Shown: positions 14,048 through 22,609 of the stretch, piece after piece
Layout: each line of letters begins with the position of its first letter
How positions within the stretch are numbered: position 1 is the stretch's first letter
Origin: a virus
DNA length: 29,016 nt
Virus record (IMG/VR): IMGVR_UViG_3300023116_000240
Span: 1-29,016 of that record
Reading direction: 5' to 3' (one strand)
Position numbers and translations under genes: made by a program
Notes under the pieces: model-generated
Databases searched by the model: none
What the model saw: only the letters and a program-made list of their open reading frames with translations
Told to the model about the DNA's origin: nothing

Positions 14048-14328
14048 ACGATCTGGATCCTAAGTCTGTTGCTTCAACAAAGACTATTATTATTCATGAA
14101 CGATTTCCTTATAGGTTTGTTCAAAAAGGACATATTCAATTGAATGGAAATCCCGATTTCCGTATGCAAAAAGCAAATGAGTATACTAAAAAGTACTCTG
14201 ATGTTTATTTGTTTGATAATGGAGATCAAATGCTTCTTGCTATTGAAGACTCTGAATATGCTAAATGGTTAGACCCAGATTGTGTGCCTTGTTATGTGAA
14301 GGATGATGAAGACATGGAGAGTCTCTAA
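14044..14328 (+). CDS. Hypothetical protein, 94 aa, GTG start
   Basis: GTG start overlapping the upstream stop, with GGAGG (14035-14039) in position. The sequence has an IIIHERFPYRFVQKGHI beta-like segment and an acidic C-terminus (YVKDDEDMESL). A small C-x2-C pattern (CVPC) occurs near the end. No membrane region, no recognised family. It forms a two-gene early operon with the gene before. Confidence 0.65.
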   Translation: MNDLDPKSVASTKTIIIHERFPYRFVQKGHIQLNGNPDFRMQKANEYTKKYSDVYLFDNGDQMLLAIEDSEYAKWLDPDCVPCYVKDDEDMESL

Positions 14329-14371
14329 AAACCCTGGTCGGGATCCCCCCCTCGTTCTTTATATTATTAAA

Positions 14372-14581
14372 ATGGAATTTGATGATATTGAACTGATGCA
14401 ACTTCAGTTTTGCATGAGTGAAACTAAAAAGATGATGATGCATCCATCTGAGCATCGTCGTCATGCTTCAATCACTCAAAAGATTGAAGCAGAAATGGAA
14501 AGACGCAAACAAGCAACTGGAGCATATACTCTAGATGGTGTATTGCGTCAACTTGAGGAAGACATCAAACGTCTTTCGTAG
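14372..14581 (+). CDS. Helical hypothetical protein, 69 aa
   Basis: ATG at 14372 with an AT-rich leader and no strong ribosome site; an upstream in-frame extension back to 14303 overlaps the preceding gene and is less likely. The protein is helical with many Met, Gln, Lys and Glu residues (IELMQLQFCMSETKKMMMHP), without a membrane segment. Separated from its neighbour by 43 bases containing a C-rich run. Confidence 0.6.
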   Translation: MEFDDIELMQLQFCMSETKKMMMHPSEHRRHASITQKIEAEMERRKQATGAYTLDGVLRQLEEDIKRLS

Positions 14582-14631
14582 TCACGGATGGACTATAACA
14601 GCACTGGTGGAGTCATCAAGACCCCTTAAAA

Positions 14632-14663: not shown

Positions 14664-14897
14664 ATGTCAACATCAAGAAGAAAATCTACTCAAGTAACTT
14701 CTGAAAGTGGTGCATATATGTCACAATACGATCAAGAAGTTGAACAGAGACTTCAGGCATTAGAAGCACAAGCACATACTCCTTGTAGTGGTGGCGGTGC
14801 AAGCGAAGAAAGAATCGCAGCACTGGAAGCTAGACTTGAGCAGGTTGTTGAATGTCTGAGAAGAGCAGCACCTGGTTCAACCAGAAAACTCCCATAA
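14664..14897 (+). CDS. Coiled-coil protein, 77 aa
   Basis: ATG after a late promoter-like box. The N-terminus is Ser/Thr-rich (MSTSRRKSTQVTSESGAYMS). Heptad helix follows from about residue 20 (QYDQEVEQRLQALEAQA), then PCSGGG, then a second helix (ERIAALEARLEQVVECLRR). This could be a trimeric or dimeric fibre connector or assembly protein. A second ATG at residue 19 (14718) is a possible alternative start. Nearest neighbours are unrelated early genes, so function is not clear. Confidence 0.65.
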   Translation: MSTSRRKSTQVTSESGAYMSQYDQEVEQRLQALEAQAHTPCSGGGASEERIAALEARLEQVVECLRRAAPGSTRKLP

Positions 14898-14982
14898 GGT
14901 TTCTTGCCATCCCTTTAAAAGGCAAGTGGTGCGGATGGGGTAACCCCGCCTGGTTTCTTGCCTCCAGATAAAGGGCAAGTGG
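14898..14982 (+). repeat. Tandem pair of similar hairpins in a non-coding gap
   Basis: GGTTTCTTGCC occurs at 14898-14908 and again at 14952-14962, 54 bases apart, each followed by GGCAAGTGG (14921-14929, 14974-14982). Each copy folds as CTTGCC/GGCAAG with an 11-12 base loop. Between them is GGGG-TAA-CCCC (14937-14947). No open frame covers the region. It looks like a structured RNA or regulatory site before the glycan genes. Confidence 0.6.
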
Positions 14983-15009
14983 CGAGCCTGCATACCTAAA
15001 CGGAATCAA

Positions 15010-15037
15010 GAGAGGTTGCATAAACCTCTCTTTTTTT
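15010..15037 (+). terminator. Rho-independent terminator
   Basis: GAGAGGTT (15010-15017), loop GCATA, AACCTCTC (15023-15030), then seven T. It overlaps the -35 box of the promoter for the glycan genes. Confidence 0.9.
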
Positions 15038-15044
15038 GTATAAT
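15016..15044 (+). promoter_or_regulatory. Sigma70 promoter TTGCAT-17-TATAAT for the glycan operon
   Basis: TTGCAT (15016-15021), 17-bp spacer, TATAAT (15039-15044). The -35 box lies in the terminator loop, so the hairpin stops upstream RNA while the promoter restarts transcription near 15051, 16 bases before the GT11 ATG. Confidence 0.65.
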
Positions 15045-15066: not shown

Positions 15067-15888
15067 ATGATCGGATTTAATCACCTAGGTAGACTTGGAA
15101 GACTTGGGAATCAGATGTTTCAATACGCAGCACTAAGAGGTATTGCTGCTAACGCTGGAGTAAACTTTTGTCTGCCAGTATATAATGATAGACTTGATGA
15201 TGGTGCAGGAAACAAGGTCAAAACAGAACTATTTGATTGCTTTGAGATGAGCACTGTTTCTAGCATGAATATTCAGACCATCGATGTTGACAGACCTATT
15301 GTTCCTGAAGGTCAATTTCATTACAATGAAAATATCCACAAAAATTGTGATGACTGGGTAAGCATCTATGGATTTTTTCAGAGTGAAAAATATTTCAAAA
15401 ATGTTGAAGATATCATCCGTCAAGACTTTACTTTCGAAGAGGAAATAAGAAAACCTTGTGAGCAGATGTTAGGATCTCTCTATGCAGCAGATGTTGATCC
15501 TACAATCATTGGATTGCATATTCGTAGAGGAGATTATTTGACCAATCAAAATCACGCTGCTTTGGACATTTCTTATTACGAAAAGGCACTGGAGATGTTC
15601 CCAAGTGATGCTACAGTCATTGTATTTTCAGATGATCCTGCTTGGTGCCATGATCAACCTATTTTCTCTGATGATAGGTTTATGATTTCTGAAAATACTA
15701 ATGGACACGTAGATATGTGTTTGATGAGTATGTGTACTGATTTTATTATTGCAAACTCATCATTCTCATGGTGGGCAGCATGGTTAGCAAATAAAGGAAG
15801 AGTGATTGCACCATCTAAATGGTTTGGTCCTGGTAACCAACACTTGGAAACCAAAGATATCTATTGCGAAAATTGGGAGGTAGTATGA
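15067..15888 (+). CDS. GT11 family alpha-1,2-fucosyltransferase-like enzyme
   Basis: 273 aa from the ATG at 15067; an upstream TTG frame overlaps the promoter. Enzymes of this family transfer fucose from GDP-fucose to galactose. Motifs: N-terminal LGRLGNQMFQYAALRG, the GT11 opening; HIRRGDY (151-157), the HxRRxD-type GDP-fucose-binding motif; and the C-terminal block NSSFSWWAAWL plus VIAPSKWFG. It is cytosolic, without signal or membrane span. The ATGA overlap couples it to the GT6 gene. Acceptor and linkage are inferred from the family, not shown here. Confidence 0.88.
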   Translation: MIGFNHLGRLGRLGNQMFQYAALRGIAANAGVNFCLPVYNDRLDDGAGNKVKTELFDCFEMSTVSSMNIQTIDVDRPIVPEGQFHYNENIHKNCDDWVSIYGFFQSEKYFKNVEDIIRQDFTFEEEIRKPCEQMLGSLYAADVDPTIIGLHIRRGDYLTNQNHAALDISYYEKALEMFPSDATVIVFSDDPAWCHDQPIFSDDRFMISENTNGHVDMCLMSMCTDFIIANSSFSWWAAWLANKGRVIAPSKWFGPGNQHLETKDIYCENWEVV

Positions 15889-16604
15889 AACTTGCAGTAA
15901 TTTTTATTGGTACAAACAAATATCTAAATTTTCTTCCAACATGGTATGAAAGTTGTGAAGAATTTTTGTTACCTGGAATTGAAAAGAAGTATTTGATATT
16001 CACTGATGGTGAGATTCCAGAATCTCCTGACAATGCAATTGTCTATCATCAAGAGCATTTGGAATGGCCATTCATTACTCTCTATCGATTCAAAACAATT
16101 CAAAAATGTTTTAATGATATTCAAGATTGTGATTGGTTACTATTCTTGGATGCTGATATGAGACTGGTAGATACCGTTTCTGTAGATGATCTGATTAATA
16201 ATGACAAGAAATACATTGGTGTGCACCACCCATGCCATTACTTGGGAATGCATCCACACAATAAACCACCAGGATCTCTTGAAACCAATCCAGATTCTAG
16301 AGCATGTGTTTCAGAAAGCGATGATATTAGTGTTTATTTTCAAGGATGTTTGTGGGGAGGTAAAATCCCCCACGTTCTTGAAATGATAAAGGAACTTGAC
16401 CAGAGAACTGATGAAGATTATAATAATGATGTTATTGCTGTATGGCATGATGAAAGTCATTTGAATAAATTCTATTCAGAAAGAAAAGATGAAGTTCATA
16501 TACTTCCCTCAGAGTTTGCTTATCCAGAAGTTTTTGATGGACAATGCGACTTTGAAGCAAAAATTGTACATTTAGCAAAAGATAATAGCAAGTATCATGT
16601 TTAA
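15885..16604 (+). CDS. GT6 family glycosyltransferase (ABO blood-group transferase-like)
   Basis: 239 aa; ATG at 15885 with GGGAGG in position, overlapping the GT11 stop. GT6 enzymes add Gal or GalNAc in alpha-1,3 linkage, usually to a fucosylated galactose. Visible motifs: LFLDADM with D89-A-D91, the metal-binding DxD; FQGCLWGG; and WHDESHLNKF with D189 and E190, the conserved GT6 acceptor/catalytic region. Many bacterial GT6 proteins replace DxD by NxN, whereas this one keeps the vertebrate form. There is no membrane anchor, unlike Golgi enzymes. A T4-like cyanophage GT6 has been reported before (P-SSM2, from memory). Confidence 0.88.
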   Translation: MKLAVIFIGTNKYLNFLPTWYESCEEFLLPGIEKKYLIFTDGEIPESPDNAIVYHQEHLEWPFITLYRFKTIQKCFNDIQDCDWLLFLDADMRLVDTVSVDDLINNDKKYIGVHHPCHYLGMHPHNKPPGSLETNPDSRACVSESDDISVYFQGCLWGGKIPHVLEMIKELDQRTDEDYNNDVIAVWHDESHLNKFYSERKDEVHILPSEFAYPEVFDGQCDFEAKIVHLAKDNSKYHV

Positions 16605-17295
16605 GATTGCAATTGAATACTCTGGTCAACCTAGAGATTTGCGTGAGTGTTATCAGAATCATGTAGAAACTATTTGGAAACCAAATGAAGACTGCCAAAT
16701 TGATGTCTTTGCTCATATTTGGTTAGATGAATCTGGATACTTTTGGGAAAGTTATAAGAACAGGGGAAAGTGGGAATCCTGGCAAGTTCCTTTCATGCAA
16801 GAAAATTGGCAACCAAAAGGAATTGAATTTGAAGAACCAAAAGAATTTATTACTGAGTGGAAACCAGATCCTAGATTCCCACATCCTGTTAATAATACTA
16901 TCTCCATGTTCTATAGTCTTGAAAAGGCAAATGATCTAAAGAGAAAGTATGAGGAAGAAAATAATTTTAAGTATGATTGTGTTGTCAGAATGAGATCTGA
17001 TCAATTCTTTTTGAAGAGTGTTGGTCCTCTGCAGTCATATGATATGAATGTTGTCAATGTTCATAATGAATATGCTCATACAGATTATGGTATTAATGAT
17101 CAGTTTGCATTTGGCAACTCTGAAATGATGGATAAATATCTCAGCGTTTGCAGCAACCTCGATAACATTGTAGAAGGAGGTTCTGCTATCAATCCTGAAA
17201 CATTGTTGGGTTGGAATGCAATAAAATACCACGAATTACCAATCACTAAACACGCCTTTAGTTATCGCCTTTGGAGAGATGTATGCAAAAATTAG
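16597..17295 (+). CDS. Putative glycosyltransferase-like GQPR protein (copy 1)
   Basis: 232 aa, overlapping the GT6 gene by 8 bases. Starts with a beta strand and GQPRD motif (KIAIEYSGQPRDLRE), then DVFAHIW, and later KYEEENNFKYDCVVRMRSDQ, where RxD could sit at a metal or sugar-nucleotide site. The same order of motifs is found in the protein at 18656. The layout is like GT-A fold enzymes and the context is glycan synthesis, but the donor and acceptor are unknown. Confidence 0.65.
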   Translation: MFKIAIEYSGQPRDLRECYQNHVETIWKPNEDCQIDVFAHIWLDESGYFWESYKNRGKWESWQVPFMQENWQPKGIEFEEPKEFITEWKPDPRFPHPVNNTISMFYSLEKANDLKRKYEEENNFKYDCVVRMRSDQFFLKSVGPLQSYDMNVVNVHNEYAHTDYGINDQFAFGNSEMMDKYLSVCSNLDNIVEGGSAINPETLLGWNAIKYHELPITKHAFSYRLWRDVCKN

Positions 17296-18656
17296 TAATC
17301 TTTGATTTGGATGGCGTTTTAATTGATAGTAAAGACTATCATTATGAAGCACTTAATCAAGCACTTGGAGAAGAATATGCCATCAGTAGATCAGATCATG
17401 TTGCAATCTATGATGGTCTTCCCACCAAGGCAAAATTAGAACTTCTCACAAAGAACAAAGGACTTCCAGTTGATCAATATGATCGAATCTGGAAGGATAA
17501 GCAAGAGGCAACTCTTAAAATCTTTAATGATTGTGTTGCAAAGGATTATGAGTTGATGGGATACTTCCAACAACTTGTAGATTGTGGATATAAGATTGCA
17601 GTTGCATCTAATAGCATTCGTAATACAGTAAAGATTATTCTTTTGCGTTTGGGACTGCTTGAGTTTGTTGATATGTACGTCTCTAATGAAGATGTAGTTC
17701 GCAACAAACCATTTCCTGCAATGTATTGGAAGTGTATGACAGCACTTGGGACGTTGCCAAATGATACAGTTATCGTAGAAGATAGTCATATTGGTCGTCA
17801 AGGTGCTCTGGACAGCAAGTGCCATCTCGTTCCTGTAGAGGATCGTAAAGATCTTAATCAAGCAAAGATTGATCGCATCAAAAAAATTCTTAATGGCACA
17901 AAGAAAAAAGTTGCTTGGGAGAGCAAGACTATGAACGTTCTGATTCCTATGGCAGGTGCTGGCAGCAGGTTTGCTAGTCAGGGTTACACCTTCCCCAAAC
18001 CTTTGATCGAAGTCAAAGGTAAACCAATGATTCAGGTTGTTGTTGAGAACCTGAATATCAAAGCAAACTATACCTTCATTGTTCAAAAGGAACACTATGA
18101 GAAGTATAATCTCAACTATCTGCTTCCTCTGATTGCTCCTGGATGTAACATTGTTCAGGTTGATGGTCTTACTGAAGGTGCTTGCTGCACTACTCTTCTT
18201 GCAAAGGAGTTTATCAACAACGATGAACCTCTTGTGATGGCAAACTCTGACCAGTTTGTTGAGTGGGATTCTAACGAGACTCTTTATGCCTTCCAAAATG
18301 GTGAGGTTGATGGTGGTATCGTCACGTTCCCTGCAACTCACCCTAAATGGTCTTATGCCAAACTGGGTGAAGATGGTTATGTTGCAGAGGTTGCTGAGAA
18401 GAAGCCTATCTCAGAACATGCGACAGTTGGTATCTACTACTGGAAGAAGGGTTCTGATTATGTGAAGTATGCTGAGCAGATGATTGAAAAGGATATTCGT
18501 GTAAACAACGAGTATTATGTTTGCCCAGTATTCAACGAAGCAATTGGTGACGGCAAGAAGATTCGTATCAAAGAGATTGATAGGAATGGTATGTGGGGTA
18601 TCGGAACTCCTGAGGATTTAAACTACTTCCTGGAGCATTATCAAGGAGAAGTTTGA
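17283..18656 (+). CDS. Fusion of HAD phosphatase and sugar nucleotidyltransferase
   Basis: 457 aa from the ATG at 17283 with GGAGA upstream; a longer TTG frame is ignored. Residues 1-210 form a HAD domain related to beta-phosphoglucomutase: FDLDGVLID (D8 nucleophile, D10), VASNS, RNKPFP and VIVEDSHIG. Residues 217-457 form a nucleotidyltransferase: LIPMAGAGSRF, FPKPLIEVKGKPMI, and an ANSDQF metal-binding block. The pair could make a sugar-1-phosphate or remove a phosphate, then activate the sugar as an NDP-sugar for the neighbouring transferases. GGGAGAG (17917-17923) lies 7 bases before ATG217, so the second domain may also be made alone. Confidence 0.85.
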   Translation: MQKLVIFDLDGVLIDSKDYHYEALNQALGEEYAISRSDHVAIYDGLPTKAKLELLTKNKGLPVDQYDRIWKDKQEATLKIFNDCVAKDYELMGYFQQLVDCGYKIAVASNSIRNTVKIILLRLGLLEFVDMYVSNEDVVRNKPFPAMYWKCMTALGTLPNDTVIVEDSHIGRQGALDSKCHLVPVEDRKDLNQAKIDRIKKILNGTKKKVAWESKTMNVLIPMAGAGSRFASQGYTFPKPLIEVKGKPMIQVVVENLNIKANYTFIVQKEHYEKYNLNYLLPLIAPGCNIVQVDGLTEGACCTTLLAKEFINNDEPLVMANSDQFVEWDSNETLYAFQNGEVDGGIVTFPATHPKWSYAKLGEDGYVAEVAEKKPISEHATVGIYYWKKGSDYVKYAEQMIEKDIRVNNEYYVCPVFNEAIGDGKKIRIKEIDRNGMWGIGTPEDLNYFLEHYQGEV

Positions 18657-19462
18657 TGAAAGTTGCATTATCATTTTTTGGTCAACCCAGATATGTGAGA
18701 AACAAGCACATCTTTAATTCATACAAACATTTTTTCCTTGATAGGTATGACACAGATGTCTTTTGCCATATGTGGTGGGAAGAAGATGGTGAATATGACA
18801 TCTCTTCTTGGGTACAATATGAAGGATCTCCAGTAACACCTGATGCGCTCTCAATTGTTTCTGATGATTATGATCCTTTGGTTTTGAAAATTGAACCTCC
18901 TAAAAAGTTTAATTTTCCTCAACCAGCACTAGATTATATTGATGAAAAGTTTACTGGCAAAAAGGATAGTTGGAAGCACAGTAATTATAGTAACGTTCTA
19001 TCTCAATTATATTCTGTTCAATCTTCATCACGTATTGTAAAGGAATATGCTGAGGAGAATAATGTTAAATATGATTTCATTGTTCTTGCAAGATATGATA
19101 CTATTCTATATGGTATTCCAGATTTAAATGATTGCAATCCAAATAAATTGCATCTTCCACATCATCATGACAGATTCCCTGATGTGACTATTTTCTATCC
19201 AATGAAGCATCTTGATTGGGCATCAAATGTATTTGATGATGTAAAAGATCCCGATGTTTACACAAAGGTCTTTTCTCCATCACCAGAAGGATTCAAATAT
19301 TTTTCTTTTAGAAAAAGATTTCCTGTGACAGATATTCAACCAACAAAAATGGATGGACATTGTGTTCGTTCTTTTAACGACAACATTAAAAATGCAAAGT
19401 TCCTAGAAAACATGACAAATGATTTTCTTTGGGAGAGATCAAAAACTTTTTATAAAAACTGA
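18656..19462 (+). CDS. Putative glycosyltransferase-like GQPR protein (copy 2)
   Basis: 268 aa; ATG at 18656 overlapping the fusion gene stop, AAGGAG upstream. It shares with the protein at 16597 the N-terminal FGQPR, DVFCHMWW, EPPKKF, YSVQSS and a central KEYAEENNVKYDFIVLARYD block, then a different C-terminus with His-rich LPHHHD and FPVTDIQPTKMDGH. This marks a divergent paralogue, probably acting in the same pathway on another sugar. No membrane span. Family not identified with confidence. Confidence 0.65.
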   Translation: MKVALSFFGQPRYVRNKHIFNSYKHFFLDRYDTDVFCHMWWEEDGEYDISSWVQYEGSPVTPDALSIVSDDYDPLVLKIEPPKKFNFPQPALDYIDEKFTGKKDSWKHSNYSNVLSQLYSVQSSSRIVKEYAEENNVKYDFIVLARYDTILYGIPDLNDCNPNKLHLPHHHDRFPDVTIFYPMKHLDWASNVFDDVKDPDVYTKVFSPSPEGFKYFSFRKRFPVTDIQPTKMDGHCVRSFNDNIKNAKFLENMTNDFLWERSKTFYKN

Positions 19463-19473
19463 GAGAGATTATT

Positions 19474-20403
19474 ATGTTAAAAGTAGCAGCAGTTATACCC
19501 CCAGCATCAATTAATCTGGGTAATGATTTCTTCAGTTTGGGAGGAATCGAAGCATTTAAACAAACCTTCTCAAATATTGAGATGCAAATTCATCTAATTG
19601 AATTTTTTGATAGTGGTGAGAGGGGATTTAATGATGGAAGAACATCTTTCTTCACTGAAGCAACACTTACTTGGATCAAAGAGAGTGCAGATCTAGTTGT
19701 TCTCTTTGGTGGGTGTTGTTTGCGTCCTGATATGAAACCCTTGTTCCAACCTCTGATTGATACTGGAACACCTTTCATTGGATGGGGACTCTCTCCAACA
19801 GACTATAACCAAGCAGATGTTCAGTTTGCAAAAGAAATTGCAGATCAATCTCTTGTACTGATTACGCGAGATGATATTATCGCAAAGATGGTAGGAGAAT
19901 ATCCTAAGTTCATGAGTGGAATGGATGGTGGATGGTGGATGGGAAGTTCTTACAATCGTCCAGAAAAAACTTCAGAGTATCTTGTTATTAATATTGAGTC
20001 TGGTAACAAACTCAATGTAAATGAAGCACAGAAAGCCCTTGAAATTCTGCAAGAACAAACCAAGTCACCAATCTATATGGTGTCTAATAATTGTGAGCGT
20101 GACTATCACCACATGCACCCACAAAGTCTCTTGATTACTAATTCAAGACACTTGTACACAACTTTAGCGAACGCTAGTTATGTCGTCACTAGCAGAGCAC
20201 ACTCTACTATTTGCTGCCTAACTAATGGAGTTCCTGTAGAGTATGTTGGTTCCACTGAACCTAGAGTAATGGGTCTCATGGAAACTGTTGGATATGATTT
20301 CAAGAACGAAGGTTCTCTTGAACCTGAGGAAATTATGAAAAAAGTTGAAGAGTCCAAAAACAATTTCATGGAAAAAGTTCGAGCAAACGTAACCCTTCCC
20401 TAA
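19474..20403 (+). CDS. Polysaccharide pyruvyltransferase family protein
   Basis: 309 aa. ATG at 19474 after a GAGAGAG stretch. It has the pattern of the WcaK/AmsJ family (PF04230): an N-terminal nucleotide-like half with VVLFGGCCLRPD, an FIGWGLSP block, and a C-terminal half with VVTSRAHSTICCLTNGVPVE followed by EPRVMGL. Proteins in this family add ketal-linked pyruvate to sugars, making a negatively charged glycan. Some act as other transferases, so the exact reaction is uncertain. Cytosolic, no signal sequence. Confidence 0.72.
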   Translation: MLKVAAVIPPASINLGNDFFSLGGIEAFKQTFSNIEMQIHLIEFFDSGERGFNDGRTSFFTEATLTWIKESADLVVLFGGCCLRPDMKPLFQPLIDTGTPFIGWGLSPTDYNQADVQFAKEIADQSLVLITRDDIIAKMVGEYPKFMSGMDGGWWMGSSYNRPEKTSEYLVINIESGNKLNVNEAQKALEILQEQTKSPIYMVSNNCERDYHHMHPQSLLITNSRHLYTTLANASYVVTSRAHSTICCLTNGVPVEYVGSTEPRVMGLMETVGYDFKNEGSLEPEEIMKKVEESKNNFMEKVRANVTLP

Positions 20404-20404
20404 C

Positions 20405-20866
20405 ATGAAAAGAATAATCGCACATCGTGCCAACATTGGTGGACCAAATCCAGATGTTGAAAATAGTCCAGATCAAATTGACAAATGCATAGAAGAAGGT
20501 TATGATGTTGAAATTGATCTTAGATTTGATAGATCAACAGAGTCTTTGTGGTTAGGTCATGATGGACCTCAACATAAAGTAACCTGGTGGTGGTTAGCAA
20601 AGAGAATCAAAAATCTTTGGATTCACTGCAAAGACTTAGATACCCTTCATGAATTATCTGTAAACACTTCTGGATACAATTATTTTTGGCACCAAGAAGA
20701 TGATTATACTCTTACTAGTAAGGGTTATCTTTGGGCATATCCTGGCAAACCTTACACTTTTCATACTGTAATTGTTATGCCAGAGTGGGAAGATGTAAAT
20801 TGGGATTTCTTGAAGAATAAACATTGTTATGGTATTTGTACAGATTATCCAGAAAAATTAAAATGA
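20405..20866 (+). CDS. Short glycerophosphodiester phosphodiesterase-like protein
   Basis: 153 aa; starts one base after the previous stop. It carries the GDPD opening IIAHRANIGGP (HRG replaced by HRA), ENSPDQIDKCIEEGYDVEID with the ExD metal pair, and LGHDGP with a second His. Standard GDPD enzymes are about 240 aa, so this is a shortened TIM-barrel form. It may cleave a phosphodiester in a lipid or polysaccharide, or be an inactive relative. The end overlaps the GT4 start (ATGA). Confidence 0.6.
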   Translation: MKRIIAHRANIGGPNPDVENSPDQIDKCIEEGYDVEIDLRFDRSTESLWLGHDGPQHKVTWWWLAKRIKNLWIHCKDLDTLHELSVNTSGYNYFWHQEDDYTLTSKGYLWAYPGKPYTFHTVIVMPEWEDVNWDFLKNKHCYGICTDYPEKLK

Positions 20867-21813
20867 AAATAACTTTAGTAGGACCTGGTATCATGCCCAT
20901 CCCTCCAACTGGATGGGGTGCTGTTGAGATTCTAATTTGGGATACCAGGAACACTCTGAAAAGTTTGGGACATGAAGTTCAAATTGTGAATACTAGAAAT
21001 CCCAGTGAGATCATCTCTCAGATTAATGAATTCAGACCAGACTTTGTTCATGTTCATTATGATGAATTTATTGGAGTATATTCTTATATTCAATATCCCA
21101 AAGCAATCACAAGTCACTTTGGCTATCTAGAAAGACCTGAAATGTTTGGTGGATATGCAAACGTTGCTAATGCATTTGCAAGAATTAAACCAAATGTATT
21201 CTGCTTATCTGAAGGAATTAAGAACGTATATAAAGTTCTGATGAATATTTCAGAAGAGAATCTATTTGTTACACCAAATGGTGTTAACTGTGATGCGTTC
21301 AGGTACACTGAGGAACCAAAGTATCCTGATCGATCATTGTATCTTGCTAAGATTGATTATCGTAAAAGGCAGCATCAGTTCCAGTCTATTGATAGTTTGT
21401 GGTATGCTGGAAATAATGCTGATGGAAGATTTGATACTAACAAGAATTATCTTGGAGAGTGGTCAAAGGATGTTCTCCATGATCAATTGACTGACTATGG
21501 AAACCTTGTGCTCTTATCTGATGGTGAAGCACATCCTTTGGTTTGTATGGAAGCACTTGCCGCAGGACTTGGTGTTGTAGTCACTGAATGGGGTAAAGCA
21601 AACCTTGATGAAACCAAAGAATTTATTACCATCATTCCTGAGAGTAAAGTTGGTGATATTGAATACGTTGAATCTATGATCATTGAGAATAGAAACTATT
21701 CGATAAACAATCGTCAAGAGATTAAAGAATATTCCAAAAACTTTGACTGGAATAACGTAATAACTAAACATTATCTTCCAAGTGTAAATTCAATTATTGG
21801 TAATCATGGATAG
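20863..21813 (+). CDS. GT4-type (GT-B fold) glycosyltransferase
   Basis: 316 aa from the ATG at 20863, which overlaps the preceding stop; the upstream frame in the GDPD-like gene is not used. N-terminal KITLVGPG and PPTGWGAVE form the acceptor-side nucleotide-fold opening. The C-terminal domain has a donor-binding segment, LSDGEAHPLVCMEALAAG, with the E-x7-E-like spacing of GT4 enzymes. It would transfer a sugar from an NDP-sugar inside the cell. Substrate unknown; possibly the product of the HAD/nucleotidyltransferase fusion. Confidence 0.8.
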   Translation: MKITLVGPGIMPIPPTGWGAVEILIWDTRNTLKSLGHEVQIVNTRNPSEIISQINEFRPDFVHVHYDEFIGVYSYIQYPKAITSHFGYLERPEMFGGYANVANAFARIKPNVFCLSEGIKNVYKVLMNISEENLFVTPNGVNCDAFRYTEEPKYPDRSLYLAKIDYRKRQHQFQSIDSLWYAGNNADGRFDTNKNYLGEWSKDVLHDQLTDYGNLVLLSDGEAHPLVCMEALAAGLGVVVTEWGKANLDETKEFITIIPESKVGDIEYVESMIIENRNYSINNRQEIKEYSKNFDWNNVITKHYLPSVNSIIGNHG

Positions 21814-22609
21814 GGATAAAAATAAGTCAACGTATAAACTGAAAAACTTTGGACCTGTTTATTGCATCAATCTGGATGGTCAACCAGAAAGATGGGAGTT
21901 TATGGAAGATCAGTTTAAGTATTGGGAACTTACTGATTACGAACGCATCTCTGCATATGATGGTAGAGATGATGATCTAAGTGACATTATTACTGGTCGT
22001 TATCCTTCTATGATGACTTCAGGTGAGATTGGATGTACAACTTCTCATCTAAAGGCACTGAAGCATTACCTTGAAACTTCAGATTCTCCATATGCAATCA
22101 TTATGGAAGATGATTGTGATTTAGATCTTGTGAGATTTTGGAATTTCACTTGGAATGATTTCTATGCACACTTCCCCTATGATTGGGATGTGGTACAGAT
22201 GGCAATCATTTGTACTGGAGATTTGCACGTCAAGCTTCATAAGAGATTTGTAAACGATTTCTCTACCGCATGTTATGTCATCAATCGTTATCATGCAGAA
22301 AAACTTGTTCGTCTCCACTGTCGTGGAGAAAAGTATAAATTGGATCAAGGCATGAAACCTCGTCCAGTTGCAGATGATCTTATCTATAATTCAGGGAATA
22401 CATTTGCAATTCCTCTGTTGATGTATAAGATTCAATTGGGATCTAGTATCCATCCAGAGCACATTGATGCCTTTCATAAAGGTAATCATGATGCTCTTTG
22501 GAATTATTGGCAGCAGTCTGGTGCAGGTATTGACATTGCAGACTATATGAACTATGATCCGTATCTTGGCAGGATTACTGAAAGTTCTGCCACGCAACAG
22601 GGACAGTAA
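21806..22609 (+). CDS. GT25 family glycosyltransferase
   Basis: 267 aa from the ATG at 21806, overlapping the GT4 stop by 8 bases. Motifs: VYCINLDGQPERW, SGEIGCTTSHLKAL and IIMEDDCDLD (the EDD metal site), matching the GT25 family of lipooligosaccharide galactosyltransferases. The C-terminus is soluble. It is the last glycan gene; a 10-bp stem includes its stop codon, but no T-run follows, so termination there is not certain. Confidence 0.85.
   Translation: MDRDKNKSTYKLKNFGPVYCINLDGQPERWEFMEDQFKYWELTDYERISAYDGRDDDLSDIITGRYPSMMTSGEIGCTTSHLKALKHYLETSDSPYAIIMEDDCDLDLVRFWNFTWNDFYAHFPYDWDVVQMAIICTGDLHVKLHKRFVNDFSTACYVINRYHAEKLVRLHCRGEKYKLDQGMKPRPVADDLIYNSGNTFAIPLLMYKIQLGSSIHPEHIDAFHKGNHDALWNYWQQSGAGIDIADYMNYDPYLGRITESSATQQGQ

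Follow-up and report, generated by a model that had tools for sequence, protein, structure and literature searches.

A GT11–GT6 glycosyltransferase pair of cyanophages that probably builds a swappable surface glycan

A glycosyltransferase pair at the head of a nine-gene operon

The window, by which we mean the whole stretch of 29,016 bases analysed here, is from a T4-like cyanophage with ribonucleotide reductase genes and nine tRNAs, and its closest relatives at the DNA level are mostly Synechococcus phages. A nine-gene glycan operon (15067-22609, + strand), whose genes overlap or nearly touch, is headed by a GT11 and a GT6 glycosyltransferase gene and preceded by a structured RNA. The first-pass annotation had placed the two genes correctly at 15067-16604, and its description was too narrow in stopping at the pair.

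The first gene (15067..15888, +) encodes a protein of 273 aa that matches Pfam PF01531 at 2.4e-31 (109.5 bits against a cut-off of 23.9, covering positions 113-295 of the 298 in the profile), falls in phage family phrog_2644 (2.2e-111), and contains the donor motif HxRRxD as HIRRGDY, with RRGDY at residues 153-157. Single-sequence and profile searches of solved structures found no relative of this protein, and fold comparison alone gave relatives: the AlphaFold (AF2) model (pLDDT 92.9) best matched POFUT1, AtFUT1 (Arabidopsis FUT1), NodZ, and FUT8 (Z 13-14 over ~220-234 residues), and such matches fit a GT-B enzyme of the fucosyltransferase type. Profile, motif, and fold thus bear out the assignment to GT11, the alpha-1,2-fucosyltransferase family, for which the first-pass annotation had proposed family searches as a check; the donor of the window enzyme may be GDP-L-Fuc or GDP-L-Gal.

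The second gene (15885..16604, +) encodes a protein of 239 aa whose assignment to GT6, put forward for the same check, was likewise upheld by Pfam PF03414 (4.6e-22) and a GT-A fold; it belongs to phage family phrog_3317 (4.1e-110). By sequence, the closest solved structures are Bacteroides ovatus BoGT6a (2.2e-17) and the human ABO transferases (1.4e-16), and the AlphaFold (AF2) model (pLDDT 88.8) superimposes on BoGT6a 4ayj with Z 30.5 and rmsd 1.8 Å over 223 residues, and on the human ABO enzymes with Z about 26.7. The protein keeps both the DxD motif, as DAD at residues 89-91, and the WHDESHLNKF block at residues 187-196, as had been noted at first pass. A profile alignment sets DAD on human DVD and on BoGT6a NAN, E190 on the catalytic Glu (human E303, BoGT6a E192), and K232 on BoGT6a K231, a residue described as conserved in all GT6 (PMC3961637). 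D89, A90, D91, W187, H188, D189, and E190 are invariant across 66 non-redundant phage GT6 proteins, and E190 and K232 are invariant in the nine phage GT6 proteins that were aligned. The phage enzyme therefore resembles BoGT6a, its closest solved fold, in length and in the placing of the catalytic Glu and C-terminal Lys, but BoGT6a is a metal-independent, UDP-GalNAc-using enzyme with NAN and the donor triplet Ala-Gly-Gly. It shares with human GTA and GTB the GT6 family, the DxD motif, and the WHDESHLNK block, although identity to them is only ~25%.

The donor triplet sets the phage enzymes apart from both human types. Human A transferase has Leu266/Gly268 and B transferase Met266/Ala268, and the larger Met shuts out GalNAc (PMC4202792). 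At these positions the phage proteins have Gln153 and Cys155, and the triplet Q153-G154-C155 is invariant (66/66 non-redundant phage GT6 proteins). Because this pocket is neither A nor B, we do not file the phage GT6 as an A or a B transferase. Gln and Cys are nearer to the B residues in size, so that galactose is the better guess as the transferred sugar; B-like transfer thus seems likelier, and the triplet disfavours the A-type product that the first-pass annotation had allowed. The corresponding table of bacterial GT6 donor triplets is biased, since one scan pattern contained QGC.

Downstream of the pair, the operon continues on the + strand with a DUF7796-like protein (16597..17295; PF25072 1.8e-7, phrog_13607 1.9e-43), which is probably glycosyltransferase-like; a HAD phosphatase-nucleotidyltransferase fusion (17283..18656; PF13419 2.7e-25, PF00483 1.3e-9), with a probable role in sugar-nucleotide synthesis; a second phrog_13607 protein (18656..19462; 5.3e-43); a polysaccharide pyruvyl transferase-like protein (19474..20403; PF04230 1.9e-8); a small glycerophosphodiesterase-like (GDPD-like) protein (20405..20866; phrog_34507 2.7e-34), labelled after the gene at the same place in phage DSL-LC03 that is annotated as glycerophosphoryl diester phosphodiesterase; a GT4-type glycosyltransferase (20863..21813; PF13439 1.8e-7, phrog_33732 1.4e-175); and a GT25 protein (21806..22609; PF01755 1.8e-12). 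The pyruvyl transferase-like gene is an insertion seen in the window only, with no relative in the other 32 of 33 GT6 loci. The order GT11, GT6, DUF7796-like, HAD-nucleotidyltransferase, phrog_13607, GDPD-like, GT4, GT25 recurs with both of the donor types described below. Of 33 GT6 loci with room downstream, 22 have a GT25-like gene (directly after GT6 in 4), compared to 5 of 29 GME loci that lack GT6. Beta-galactosyltransferases are among the members of GT25, a family of LPS glycosyltransferases, and the GT25 enzyme of the operon may therefore place the galactose acceptor.

Spread of the pair and donor modules upstream of GT11

The GT11 and GT6 genes of the window are coupled by an ATGA (15885..15888, +) in which the GT11 stop TGA and the GT6 start ATG overlap, as first reported, and translational coupling is likely. 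Among 65 non-redundant phage loci with both genes, the two overlap by 1-4 nt in 50, abut in 3, and are spaced 0.15-1.9 kb apart in 12, and a scan for GT6 found GT11 upstream of it in all loci with room. In bacterial GT6 loci, GT11 lies within 5 kb in 49 of 72 and is adjacent in 29, in either order. The pairing is far beyond chance, and the overlap in 50 of 65 phage loci together with the proximity in bacterial loci implies that the two genes are functionally linked. Two further loci (L242, 13297-15849; L246, 10951-14313) have GT6 in an unusually long open frame, possibly a GT6 fusion, that precedes GT11 and so reverses the usual order. There were no cyanobacteria among 73 bacterial GT6 loci found in a scan by two short motifs.

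The first-pass annotation mentioned an earlier GT6 gene in a T4-like cyanophage, and two in cyanophages were indeed reported in 2014 (PMC3961637). Its view that the pair is unusual in a phage did not hold, as the pair is common in cyanomyoviruses: tblastn turned up relatives of GT6 in 71 phage records, every one from Synechococcus or Prochlorococcus phages or marine or uncultured viruses, and GT11 relatives in 103 phage records, and 343 IMG/VR stretches encode GT6 relatives. Isolates bearing the pair include S-8S55, S-PRM1, S-CAM9, Bellamy, DSL-LC02, DSL-LC03, B23, and ACG-2014f. The pair in the window is thus real and belongs to a cassette conserved among cyanophages.

Just upstream of GT11, the relatives carry either gmd and fcl, for GDP-L-fucose, or a GDP-mannose 3,5-epimerase (GME), for GDP-L-galactose. 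GME alone occurs in 42 of 90 loci, gmd/fcl in 35, and both in 1; none was seen in the stretch in 12, one of which (L007) shows gmd/fcl-like matches when followed across its record's origin. At 28 GME and 20 fcl loci of the non-redundant set, no more than 60 nt separate the donor gene from GT11. The records of S-8S55, S-PRM1, S-CAM9, and Bellamy label the gene overlapping the start of GT11 as UDP-glucose 4-epimerase or NAD epimerase. In searches of solved structures, the epimerases of S-8S55 and AG-345-E15 matched plant GME best (2c59, 2.5e-81; 8sg0, 4.4e-79), with the next families at only ~1e-21, and the GME active-site blocks SAC, YGWEK, EKAPAA, and GVRGRN (Cys, Tyr/Lys, Lys, Arg) are invariant in four phages. 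By sequence, therefore, this upstream epimerase is a GDP-mannose 3,5-epimerase, mostly misannotated as UDP-glucose 4-epimerase; no gene supplying UDP-Gal was found. GME genes are deposited under the 4-epimerase name in S-CAM9, S-SM2, S-T4, S-SSM7, and others. Other phages have at the same place gmd (TIGR01472, 559 bits, over the cut-off) and a GDP-L-fucose synthase gene (NF047922, 419 bits, short of the strict cut-off of 500 and far above all else).

Searches of whole records found GME in Bellamy and only gmd/fcl-like matches in DSL-LC02, DSL-LC03, ACG-2014f, and four contigs. The whole B23 record (243 kb) contained neither GME nor a gmd/fcl-like match, which implies that a donor module is not obligatory. 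Strict mutual exclusion of the two modules was ruled out by one locus with gmd and GME (L083) and by S-SCSM1, which carries gmd, fcl, and GME together (PMC9602691); module exchange is therefore not absolute. Cyanophage GME also often occurs away from GT11, which lies within 4 kb in only 17 of 80 cases, so that the GME product has other users. One bacterial locus (L144, 2290-4248) has a GT6 gene (DVD motif) followed directly by a GME-like gene, a GT6-GME association outside phages.

The GT11 sequence follows the donor module as judged from gene trees, where the module labels require at least 3 changes on the GT11 tree and at least 5 on the GT6 tree compared to ~20 for shuffled labels; the values of 3 and 5 differ little. 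We considered the N-terminal third of GT11 as a co-travelling segment and rejected it, as the thirds need 4, 3, and 4 changes. GT11 residue 155, which is G in 32 of 34 GME-linked and 0 of 24 fcl-linked proteins, was likewise dropped as a donor-specificity site, because this pattern reflects only 2-3 independent changes and bacterial GT11 proteins, presumably fucosyltransferases, also have G. A closer case is given by two loci, L011 (GME) and L017 (gmd+fcl), whose GT6 proteins are 93% identical and GT11 proteins 69%. Starting inside GT11 and running past GT6, their DNA is 86.5% identical, and pieces upstream are 82-90% identical; between these shared stretches L011 has GME and a different GT11 body. 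L011, one metagenome contig, looks like a natural module swap in which GME and most of GT11 were exchanged and GT6 was kept; a second scan for such swaps gave no further case.

Neither GME nor gmd or fcl occurs within the 29 kb of the window. Its GT11 groups in the tree with proteins from GME loci (L064, L080), from gmd/fcl loci (L085, L088), and from loci where neither was seen (L052, L063, L065), so that its L-sugar could be either option.

The leader of the operon

A wcaG RNA (Rfam RF01761), an orphan cis-regulatory RNA and riboswitch candidate, was found by cmscan at 14895..14993 (+), full length over model positions 1-98, with 95.7 bits against a gathering threshold of 42 (E 2.5e-17); the fold z was -4.4 for 14890-15040. 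Matches above the cut-off came from 24 of 50 and 25 of 46 related records, and from 0 of 14 control genomes. The RNA typically stops 55-77 nt short of the gene that opens the glycan operon, whether GME, GT11 (the case in the window and L052), or some other gene; in DSL-LC03 it lies just before a gmd-like gene. Weinberg 2010 (PMC2864571) proposes the wcaG RNA of cyanophages as a riboswitch candidate upstream of exopolysaccharide-type genes, and our literature search for its ligand found no report. Its presence before both GME-first and gmd-first operons makes GDP-L-fucose a poorer candidate than GDP-mannose or some general cue.

Between the wcaG RNA and GT11 lies an intrinsic-terminator-like hairpin followed by a T-run (15008..15032, +), and an equivalent hairpin is present in 22 of 24 wcaG leaders compared to 1.4 expected from shuffles. 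Overlapping it is a promoter-like element (15016..15044, +) with TTGCAT at 15016-15021, a spacing of 17 nt, and TATAAT at 15039-15044, whose two-hexamer score alone is marginal (p about 0.07 against shuffles). In relatives, a -10-like hexamer (TATAAT-like or TAAATA) is common after the T-run, often not significant alone. The position of this element 3' of the terminator suggests that the operon mRNA may start below the wcaG RNA, and the simple model of a wcaG riboswitch in the 5' UTR is weakened by this arrangement, which is repeated in most relatives. The accessible text of Weinberg 2010 does not discuss a terminator and promoter-like element between the wcaG RNA and the operon.

Two other features lie near the RNA. 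An intergenic motif, CTGGTCGGG / CTGGTGGAGTC, occurs at 14310-14345 and 14580-14628, upstream of the wcaG RNA, recurs in that position in many cyanophage contigs (L019, L020, L045, and others), and may represent a further family of structured RNAs or terminators. A small ORF (14664-14897; MSTSRRKSTQ... SGAYMSQYDQEVEQRLQALEA) precedes the wcaG RNA in the window, and its look-alikes stand between the RNA and GME, just after the RNA, in L075, L081, L082, and L089.

What the pair may make

Families, motifs, folds, synteny, module exchange, the operon, and the wcaG RNA were computed in this study, and from these we infer donors, acceptor, linkage, product, and biological role as follows. We consider it reasonably probable that the two genes encode the final steps of a surface-glycan pathway carried by the phage and that these make a B-shaped branch whose L-sugar is set by the upstream module. 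GT11, an inverting GT-B enzyme, would take an L-sugar from a GDP donor and attach it in alpha-1,2 linkage to a terminal galactose, for which GT25, encoded in the same operon, is a possible source. GT6, a retaining GT-A enzyme predicted from its DxD to be metal-dependent, would then attach a second sugar, likeliest galactose, in alpha-1,3 linkage to the galactose that GT11 has modified. The product would have the branched shape of the blood-group B determinant. In relatives, gmd and fcl would supply GDP-L-fucose, and GME would supply GDP-L-galactose and hence an L-galactose version of the branch; the window phage would draw its donor from the host pool or from a gene elsewhere in its own genome. 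The likely use would be modification of the host outer surface, which could exclude other phages or evade grazers, or of the virion.

This scheme resembles E. coli O86, where WbwK (GT11) and WbnI (GT6) are successive enzymes of one organism that make a blood-group B branch, as described in PMC4202792. Those are O-antigen enzymes that use L-fucose, and the text consulted does not describe for them the GME alternative or a wcaG RNA, whereas both are seen around the phage pair. That the phage GT6 would use a Fuc-alpha-1,2-Gal-type acceptor is suggested by its adjacency to GT11. It is improbable that GT6 acts independently of a GT11-modified acceptor and that the two are neighbours through a shared glycan operon, acting on different sugars, even though 12 of the 65 phage loci have 0.15-1.9 kb between the genes and some mammalian GT6 enzymes (alpha-1,3-GalT) use unfucosylated LacNAc (textbook knowledge). 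GT11 lies upstream of GT6 at every scanned locus with room, the association recurs in unrelated bacteria, and the bacterial enzymes that have been tested, BoGT6a and WbnI, take a fucosylated galactose as acceptor (PMC3961637, PMC4202792), which favours two successive transfers to one galactose as first proposed. We give still less weight to glycosylation of phage DNA or virion proteins in place of host surface glycans. T-even phages glucosylate their DNA (textbook knowledge), some neighbours in relatives are annotated as glucosyltransferases, and glycosylation of virion proteins by the pair is possible; against this, the neighbouring genes are of LPS/EPS type (GT25, GT4, nucleotidyltransferase, pyruvyl transferase-like), and the leader carries an RNA associated with exopolysaccharide genes (PMC2864571).

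The identity of the L-sugar is the more delicate question. Fucosyltransferases accept GDP-L-Gal in vitro and in the Arabidopsis mur1 mutant, where the product of plant GME replaces GDP-L-Fuc as donor (PMC8787198), which makes an L-galactose version of the branch plausible. In plants this substitution occurs in mutants or in vitro, whereas the proximity of GME and GT11 in the phage operons hints at a route used in nature; L-galactose may therefore be the sugar that many of these "fucosyltransferases" transfer. We propose tentatively, at somewhat below even chance, that the GME-linked cyanophage GT11 proteins are natural alpha-1,2-L-galactosyltransferases and that a cartridge of gmd+fcl or GME, exchanged with GT11 while GT6 is kept, switches the B-shaped branch between L-fucose and L-galactose and so varies the glycan displayed by infected cells or virions. 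A conventional L-fucose blood-group structure in all of the phages, with GME serving other enzymes of the operon, appears rather unlikely. It would agree with the characterised GT11 enzymes named in PMC4202792, which are fucosyltransferases, with gmd+fcl before the pair in ~40% of loci and near it in some bacterial relatives, and with the many phages that have GME without GT11. It fits less well with the 28 loci in which GME takes the place of gmd+fcl within 60 nt of GT11, and with a GT11 sequence that follows the module.

Of the ABO-type glycan suggested by the first-pass annotation, the two-step line therefore stands, and L-fucose becomes one of two options, as about half of the relatives are coupled to a GDP-L-galactose enzyme. 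The window pair would work like the H-then-A/B line, from which an A, B, or H antigen as product can only be surmised. Since an L-galactose gene replaces the fucose-making genes in many relatives, the product of the pair is probably a surface glycan with an exchangeable sugar and not a true ABO antigen.

With these results, the blood-group type assembly line, so far a curiosity noted for two cyanophage genes, becomes a conserved cyanomyovirus cassette. New here are the two donor modules upstream of GT11, the invariant Gln-Gly-Cys, and the wcaG RNA, terminator, and promoter-like element before the operon, and a widespread misannotation as UDP-glucose 4-epimerase is corrected to GME. An orphan riboswitch candidate before operons whose first steps share the substrate GDP-mannose suggests a ligand, and the products of cyanophage glycan genes become open to a concrete and cheap test. 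Of most interest is the exchange of L-fucose and L-galactose donor modules among relatives; if the L-galactose reading is true, the cassette would be a natural source of paired enzymes for alpha-1,2-L-galactosides and would clearly illustrate how a virus can switch glycans by exchanging modules.
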